Assembly: GCF_009659535.1 (NCBI RefSeq)
Contig: NZ_VJZZ01000012.1
Coordinates: 1-64,000 of the forward strand
DNA: 64,000 nt
DNA from: Aggregicoccus sp. 17bor-14
Lineage (GTDB): Bacteria > Myxococcota > Myxococcia > Myxococcales > Myxococcaceae
Direction: 5' to 3'
Position numbers and translations under genes: made by a program. Numbering within the stretch: position 1 is the stretch's first letter; each line of letters starts with the position of its first letter. Shown one piece after another: positions 14,925-56,686 of the stretch. Below the pieces are notes generated by a model. That model was not told where the DNA came from, ran no database searches, and saw only the letters and a list, made by a program, of their open reading frames with translations.

Positions 14925-15002
14925 GCCGCTCGAGGTCCGTCGCGGTGTTGCGGCGCGAGCCGCTTGCCTGCGCCACCACCCGTAGAAGCACTGCGCGGAG
15001 GC

Positions 15003-15420
15003 GCGAGAGTGGCGCGAGGGGCACGGCCTCGAGAAGGAGAGGCCGGGAGGGAACGGGGCTTTTCCAGCTGGGTGAAGCCGTCCACGACGCGCGGGACGGC
15101 TGTCCCGAAAGGAGACGCCCCTCTCGGGCGCGAACCGTCGCGTGATGCAAAAAGGTAAAATCCTATTTTACGTTTTTGCGCGACGCGCGCCGCCGCTCCC
15201 GAGGGGGCACGCACGCAGAGTGAAGTGCGACCTCGAGCCGGAGGGCTCGCGCGTAGAACCGACGTTTCGCTCCACGCGAAGGCGTGGACCCCAGCGTGTC
15301 ACCCCTGAGCGCGGCGCACCGGCAGCGCCCCACCGCGAAGGGCCGCAGCGCTCCGTCACCCTTCCGGTCCTGACGCTCCCAAGGGCAAGCCAACGCCTCG
15401 TGCAGGAGGCAACGCGCGTG
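15003..15420 (+). repeat. Dispersed structured repeat, copy A
   Basis: About 418 bp that recurs as copy B at 56196-56686. The 5' part (15003-15283) aligns without large gaps. The 3' part (about 15285-15420) realigns after a ~73-bp length difference. Conserved hairpins are CGGCCT/AGGCCG (15024-15045), GGGAC-GGCT-GTCCC (15093-15106), the AT-rich palindrome (15147-15179) and GAGCC-GGAG-GGCTC (15235-15248). A copy-specific TCCACGC/GCGTGGA hairpin with loop GAAG sits at the length-variable point. An open frame crosses it, but 10 of 12 codon differences from copy B within 46 codons change the amino acid, arguing against coding. The stretch 14925-15002 shows nothing recognisable. Confidence 0.85.
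15147..15179. repeat. 33-bp AT-rich palindrome core of repeat copy A
   Basis: Left arm GCAAAAAGGTAAAAT, spacer CCT, right arm ATTTTACGTTTTTGC. The arms are complementary at 14 of 15 positions, with one central G-G mismatch. The identical 33 bp occurs in copy B at 56341-56373. Such an A/T block is exceptional in this genome. Both strands carry TAAAAT, so it could also serve as a -10-like or protein-binding site. Confidence 0.85.
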
Positions 15421-15723
15421 AAGTGACACCGCGGGTGGCCTCGTCGCGGTAGTCCCCGCCCGCAGCGGCGAATGGCCTGGCGCGGCCACGTCGACGCTGC
15501 CGAGTGGACACCTGTGCTTCCCAGAGGGCGTGTGTCCCTGCTGTGCGCATCGCGTCTGTCTCGGGGCCTTCCGCGAGAAAGCAGAACCCTTGCCTCGCGG
15601 GGCAATGCCCACGGGGGGCCGGGCGTGCGCGGGATGCCCGCTCGCGTCAGGGGGCTTGCCAGGGAAGCGGCGGCGCTCCAGCGTGTGCCTGCACATCGCG
15701 CACGCCCAGCCCGCCGAGGAGCC
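15421..15723 (+). other. Gene-free leader between repeat copy A and the MASE1 kinase
   Basis: About 300 bp with no supportable reading frame, no T-tract terminator and no clear -35/-10 pair. It ends in GAGGAG just before the kinase ATG. It may be a 5' untranslated region or hold an unrecognised promoter. Confidence 0.4.
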
Positions 15724-56170: not shown

Positions 56171-56195
56171 GGCGCGCCCGGGCTTCGCGAGACAC

Positions 56196-56686
56196 GCGAG
56201 AGTGGCGCGAGGGGCACGGCCTCGAGAAGGAGAGGCCGGGAGGAGACGGGGCTTCTCCGGGTGGGAGAGGCCGTCCACGCGCGCGCGGGACGGCTGTCCC
56301 GAGCGGAGACGCCCCTCCCGGGCGCGGACGGGCGCGCGATGCAAAAAGGTAAAATCCTATTTTACGTTTTTGCGCGACGCGGGCCGCCGCTCCCGAGCGG
56401 GGACACACGCAGAGTGAAGGGCGCCTTGGAGCCGGAGGGCTCGCGCGTGGAATGGACGTTTCGCTCCATACGAGGGCCCCTCGGCGGGCAGCGCGGACGA
56501 GCATGGAAAGGAGCTTCCTTCCAGGCGACGGCCGCGGAGGCGCGAGGAGGTGGACGCCCGCGTGTCACCCCTGAGCGCTGCGGAACCGGCGACGCCCCGC
56601 CGCGAAGGGCCGCCGCGCTCCGTCACCCTTCCGGTCCTGACGCCTCCACCGGCACGCCAGCGCACGCACACGAGGCGACGCGCGTG
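56196..56686 (+). repeat. Dispersed structured repeat, copy B
   Basis: About 491 bp, homologous to copy A at 15003-15420. Matching hairpins: CGGCCT/AGGCCG (56217-56238), GGGAC-GGCT-GTCCC (56287-56300), the 33-bp palindrome (56341-56373) and GAGCC-GGAG-GGCTC (56429-56442). Between about 56476 and 56550 it carries roughly 73 bp more than copy A. Both copies lie on the plus strand, downstream of a plus-strand gene and upstream of another. The gene-free stretch 56171-56899 otherwise shows nothing recognisable in 56687-56899, ahead of the CSLREA lipoprotein. Confidence 0.85.
56341..56373. repeat. 33-bp AT-rich palindrome core of repeat copy B
   Basis: Identical over all 33 bp to 15147-15179: arms GCAAAAAGGTAAAAT and ATTTTACGTTTTTGC around CCT. 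Full identity in the least GC-rich part, while flanks vary, points to direct selection on this segment. Confidence 0.85.

Follow-up and report, generated by a model that had tools for sequence, protein, structure and literature searches.

The segment that occurs twice in the window (the whole 64,000-nucleotide stretch of DNA that was analysed) is best explained as belonging to a family of small mobile DNA elements, specific to this lineage, that are non-coding and non-autonomous and consist of palindromes in mosaic arrangement; we assign this reading a probability of about 0.82. The repeat family itself is real and strongly supported, and is apparently undescribed. An earlier sequence-only reading had proposed a two-copy element, with a structured RNA family and a non-autonomous mobile element as the alternatives. 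The number of copies was far too low: with copy A as a blastn query against its own genome (6.92 Mb in 38 contigs, ~73% G+C in sampled loci), 24 near-complete copies were recovered, and blastn and profile searches together added two partial or hybrid pieces, a 3′-end fragment (C2:241058) and a palindrome fragment (C11:66473). The either/or interpretation is partly supported. Its mobile-element half agrees with 24 dispersed copies that are gene-free and intergenic, with the sharp ends of two near-identical copies, and with the presence of relatives bearing terminal inverted repeats (TIRs) in the same genome.

Both window copies, the order of their hairpins and a perfect 33-bp palindrome were confirmed in the sequence, and copy B resembles copy A far more closely than chance would allow (blastn, E=1e-102). 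The limits first drawn around the copies, 15003–15420 for A and 56196–56686 for B, enclose a real repeat in each case but do not coincide with the cores given below, and a tail of ~45 bp beyond the core of copy A is found only in some copies. The features of the two copies are as follows.

14997 to 15377, + strand: type I mosaic palindromic element, core of copy A (24-copy alignment; boundaries by pairwise comparison of copies).
15025 to 15044, + strand: hairpin h1, GGCCTC-gagaagga-GAGGCC (97.9% of cells paired, 24 copies).
15057 to 15079, + strand: hairpin 2, GGCTTY...GAAGCC (93.8% of cells paired, 24 copies).
15102 to 15116, + strand: hairpin g, GTCYC-GAAAG-GAGAC, doubled in tandem in L049 and L050 (alignment, module scan).
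15147 to 15179, + strand: module E, 33-bp A+T-rich apical palindrome, GCAAAAAGGTAAAATCCTATTTTACGTTTTTGC (least variable part of the element; mean variability 0.039).
15251 to 15277, + strand: module C-like hairpin, GCGTRGAACSGACGTTTCGYTCCACGC (module scan).
15295 to 15377, + strand: conserved 3′ block, homologous by alignment to the type II right terminal inverted repeat (profile matches type II arms; local alignments above shuffled null).
15378 to 15421, + strand: 3′ tail common to a subset of copies (L036, L037, L040, L041, L042, L045, L047, L050, L055).
56190 to 56644, + strand: type I element, core of copy B (blastn, 24-copy alignment).
56341 to 56373, + strand: module E palindrome of copy B, the same sequence as in copy A.
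56445 to 56471, + strand: module C-like hairpin of copy B (module scan).
56504 to 56523, + strand: module B palindrome, TGGAAAGGAGCTTCCTTCCA, in copy B and absent from copy A (module scan).

Mobility is indicated by the boundaries of the copies. L046 and L048 are 99% identical across ~450 bp, and the sequence outside is unrelated; such near-identity between unrelated flanks marks a mobile repeat and excludes a segmental duplication, and type I elements are dispersed by copying. Both conditions named in the earlier reading for its refutation proved false, namely that A and B are the only copies, or that they form a segmental duplication that includes flanking DNA. Sharp ends were also seen in the pairs L036/L044, L038/L039 and L054/L058, with 'CGCGAGAG' on the left and a right end near 'GACGCC'. 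The 17-base core of the palindrome, searched for with one mismatch allowed, occurs 24 times in the genome (23 exact and one with one mismatch), always at an element site. Type I copies are 320–500 bp long, with both ends no more than 500 bp apart in every copy. Their exact termini are not fixed, because the complementarity between the 5′ and 3′ ends is short and imperfect, and because the outermost 15–45 bp differ among sub-groups, which vary in their 5′ leader and may or may not carry a 3′ tail.

Within these ends, type I follows the order h1, hairpin 2, hairpin g, adaptor, palindrome E, variable middle and conserved 3′ block. The ends are constant and the number of inner hairpin modules varies, as in BOX-type repeats, with one or two g modules, up to one C-like module and up to two B modules per copy. 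In L049 (C19:78.0–78.4 kb) and L050 (C12:101.1–101.6 kb), a second hairpin g lies in tandem ahead of the normal one. Variability in the 24-copy alignment is lowest in E (0.039), compared with 0.077 in the 5′ part and 0.22 in the variable middle. Some hairpins singled out from the two window copies fared less well in the larger alignment. GGGAC-GGCT-GTCCC is not kept, as GTCCC reads GTCTC in around half of the copies, and it is hairpin g that is conserved instead; GAGCC-GGAG-GGCTC is present, but sits in the variable middle and is missing from many copies. The two pairable differences reported for hairpin 2 are real, but this stem is among the less well kept, with C–A breaks. The earlier view that the element is non-coding was borne out: single-base length changes occur in most of the 24 copies, any one reading frame is open in 9 of them at most, and codon-phase variation is flat. 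Indels, stops and the missing three-base periodicity rule out a protein-coding element.

The profile of the 3′ block also matched other loci in the same genome, revealing a second, related and larger class, which we term type II. At least 31 type II loci are present, 21 with an arm T on the left that recurs in reverse complement on the right (T+ ... T−) and 10 with one arm. Their TIR arms are clear, whereas type I shows only the imperfect end complementarity described above, and their interiors consist of palindromes A, B, C and D shuffled in varying order and orientation. In local alignments the type I 3′ block matches the type II right arm with a score above the shuffled null, and the right ends of the two classes are homologous. 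The two classes also share modules, and the adaptor that directly precedes E in type I is the same as that directly preceding A or D in type II. Natural hybrids were found: L246 (C2:240.4–241.1 kb) begins with the left arm of type II, continues with two A modules that face each other and has the right end of type I, and in L061 module E lies beside a type II right arm. A module scan of 34 kb of element-free DNA from the window returned only chance matches to h1, C and g; A, B, D, E and T were absent.

Taken further, the palindromes would be true cassettes, in which a fixed adaptor atop a G+C-rich stem accepts the A+T-rich hairpins E, A and D through enzyme-driven, hairpin-specific exchange, in a system distinct from integrons and from REP/RAYT, with an insertion sequence (IS) preying on one cassette. 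We regard such a scheme as improbable.

Two further observations concern type II loci and palindrome C. At L253:1012–1975 (C13:35.3–36.3 kb), type II arms ~900 bp apart surround a plausible gene on the minus strand for a 185-aa secreted protein, which had no Pfam match. A transposase was rejected, given the empty Pfam search and an appearance unlike that of a transposase; the enclosed gene is possibly a captured gene. Separately, both ends of one multi-copy IS are in every instance embedded in palindrome C (TGGACGGAACRYTTCGTCCA); a 10-bp duplication, GGAACACTTC, is apparent, and the termini read TCAAGATYNA.... Its ends were located in L111:1–120, L112:1–120 and L269:1–130 (the starts of contigs C18, C24 and C7), and in L119, L268 and L270 (ends or starts of C14, C25 and C19). 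The IS seems to target module C and to break the assembly there. It presumably resembles IS4-type transposases; its 34-aa C-terminal tail matched nothing in Pfam or among plasmids.

Among the genomes searched, the family is confined to this one. Searches of 39 relatives returned only short borderline pieces; across 194 other genomes of the phylum the 5′ profile had no match, and the 3′ profile had three single borderline matches among other phylum genomes, which were taken as chance. There was no match in phages or plasmids, and the palindrome E pattern was absent from IMG/VR and GTDB contigs; these large searches evaluate only a small number of candidates in each genome and could overlook distant relatives, and the collections may omit records from the window's own genome. 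A viral or plasmid origin was rejected on the lack of matches in phages, plasmids and IMG/VR. One copy lies beside a gene for a nuoN-like protein, whose closest named match is from Corallococcus (74% identity), on which basis the genome is presumed to belong to the Myxococcaceae; comparison of this locus with Corallococcus revealed no empty site, synteny not being conserved and the genus being represented by a single genome. A literature search returned no paper on MITEs in Myxococcus xanthus or on intergenic repeats of myxobacteria.

The conserved hairpins in fixed order recall the structured RNAs of Rfam, and we considered whether the copies belong to a non-coding RNA family, acting in trans or in cis as a 3′-UTR element, that is expressed from many copies and kept for its RNA function. 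Folding energies lie 3.3–3.7 sd below those of shuffled sequences on both strands (z −3.3 to −3.7). In the + strand consensus structure the element is closed by pairing of its ends, 5′ GAGAGUGGCG with 3′ CGYCACCCUU, with wobble-compatible changes, and 96% of cells pair across the 24 copies. Paired columns show 0.66 events per column compared with 3.03 in unpaired columns, a difference biased by the prediction of pairs from conserved columns. Two-sided changes affect 6 pairs, compared with 2.9 in shuffles (5 of 500 shuffles), a figure inflated by the kinship of the copies.

Against this, strong hairpins are expected from palindromic DNA elements on either strand, and RNAalifold, run on both strands, folded neither clearly better. 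The more discriminating comparison is between transitions, as under RNA-level selection a C-to-T change opposite G keeps a pair and a G-to-A change opposite C breaks it. In strand-neutral Watson–Crick hairpins, 14 transitions were kept and 13 broken with the edge pair of columns 173–212 excluded, or 21 and 13 when this hypervariable pair (7 kept events) is included, and strand-specific G–U tolerance was not seen in these hairpins across the 24 copies. Long-range helices had 12 kept and 3 broken, a count that is not independent, as the helices were picked by the folding program. Rfam searches yielded chance matches only, with no family at gathering or permissive thresholds, and the element contains no promoter-like site. 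The genes beside the copies are unrelated in function (they include those for a short-chain dehydrogenase, a LysR regulator, a sugar transferase and a histidine kinase), and the copies lack an orientation bias, with 6 against 5 relative to codirectional genes. A common regulon was likewise rejected, as the flanking genes have no shared pathway. Because kept and broken transitions are about equal and covariation barely exceeds that of shuffles, we find no good grounds for inferring selection at the RNA level. An RNA family, with no match in Rfam, weak covariation and no strand signature, is thus an unlikely account of these repeats, and that half of the original interpretation is not upheld. 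The case is a caution that hairpin-rich repeats with several pairable differences can be mistaken for a structured RNA if no more than two copies have been seen.

The sites occupied by type I raise a different possibility. With genes assigned by a codon-usage gene caller, the 24 copies lie between 10 convergent, 3 divergent and 11 codirectional gene pairs, and of the 48 gene ends that flank them, 31 are 3′ ends (p=0.06). This excess of convergent over divergent sites, together with the nature of module E, which is the least variable part of the element and an inverted repeat that carries T5 on each strand, would suit retention as bidirectional transcription terminators, or as nucleoid or cruciform sites, between convergent genes. 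Convergent excess marks harmless insertion equally well, however, and was read as tolerance of parasitic insertions when reported for pneumococcal BOX, RUP and SPRITE repeats (PMC3049150). In addition, no terminator-like site passed a terminator scan, E has an A+T-rich stem, and convergent sites make up less than half of the total. We therefore consider such a role slightly less probable even than an RNA family, and as the evidence for mobility stands regardless, it could only be a later co-option.

Two explanations based on particular enzymes are weaker still. Intergenic palindrome mosaics resemble BIMEs and REPINs (PMC2817692, PMC3116915), which would suggest REP/REPIN-type or IS200/IS605-derived elements moved by a Y1 transposase (RAYT); PF01797 (Y1_Tnp) had no match in the genome in a search that was positive in 5 of 14 controls, and REPs are much shorter than either the modules or the chassis, making this very improbable. 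Retroelement-like spread through RNA and a reverse transcriptase (a retron, group II intron derivative or SINE-like unit), suggested by a structured type I unit that lacks strong TIRs, is the least credible of all, as PF00078 (RVT_1) had no match here but was positive in 3 of 14 control genomes, and Rfam gave no intron or retron match. With no Y1 transposase and no reverse transcriptase, the REP/RAYT, IS200/605 and retroelement mechanisms are unavailable in the present genome as assembled. Neither a parent IS or transposase sharing the element ends nor an autonomous copy was found among the elements examined in this 38-contig draft, and no boundary offset gave a target-site duplication signal above the null of re-paired or shuffled flanks, a weak test given the uncertain termini. 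By default, movement would be attributed to a transposase supplied in trans, of the DDE or another type, or to one since lost.

The non-autonomous mobile family that we favour finds its closest counterparts in BOX, BIME and MITE elements and is best regarded as a new modular variant alongside them. Like BOX of Streptococcus pneumoniae (boxA-boxB(n)-boxC; PMC3049150), it comprises small intergenic non-coding mobile repeats with extensive secondary structure and constant end modules around a variable number of hairpins, over-represented between convergent genes, and with a mobilising enzyme not assigned with certainty. It is set apart from the published description of BOX, rather than by sequence alignment, by its size (320–500 bp and larger) and very high G+C content, and also by A+T-rich apical palindromes that replace one another at a single position and by a sister class whose TIRs are long. 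With BIMEs and REP mosaics (PMC2817692, PMC3116915), it shares palindromic units alternating in orientation between genes, but it has no RAYT in the genome, a long chassis with inverted termini, and tens rather than hundreds of copies. Short, non-coding, multi-copy elements with sharp ends, unrelated flanks and, in type II, TIRs also fit the general description of MITEs (PMC10969869). The present family differs in its G+C richness and modular interior, and we do not class it as a MITE because neither target duplication nor parent transposase was found.

We propose that a conserved chassis (type I, 24 copies; type II, ~31 loci with TIRs) holds hairpin modules (A, B, C, D and E) that can be exchanged. 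Copies would enter intergenic DNA, more often downstream of genes, through mobilisation at the DNA level by an enzyme supplied in trans, and would then drift, persisting where the harm is small. Modules may be swapped by recombination or by template switching at hairpins.

Modular palindromic repeats are known in few lineages, such as those with BOX and BIME, and how they move and are reshuffled is mostly unsolved. With its two classes of chassis, five or more palindromes that can be exchanged, and natural hybrids, this private family would offer a compact system in which to trace module exchange and mobilisation in trans.
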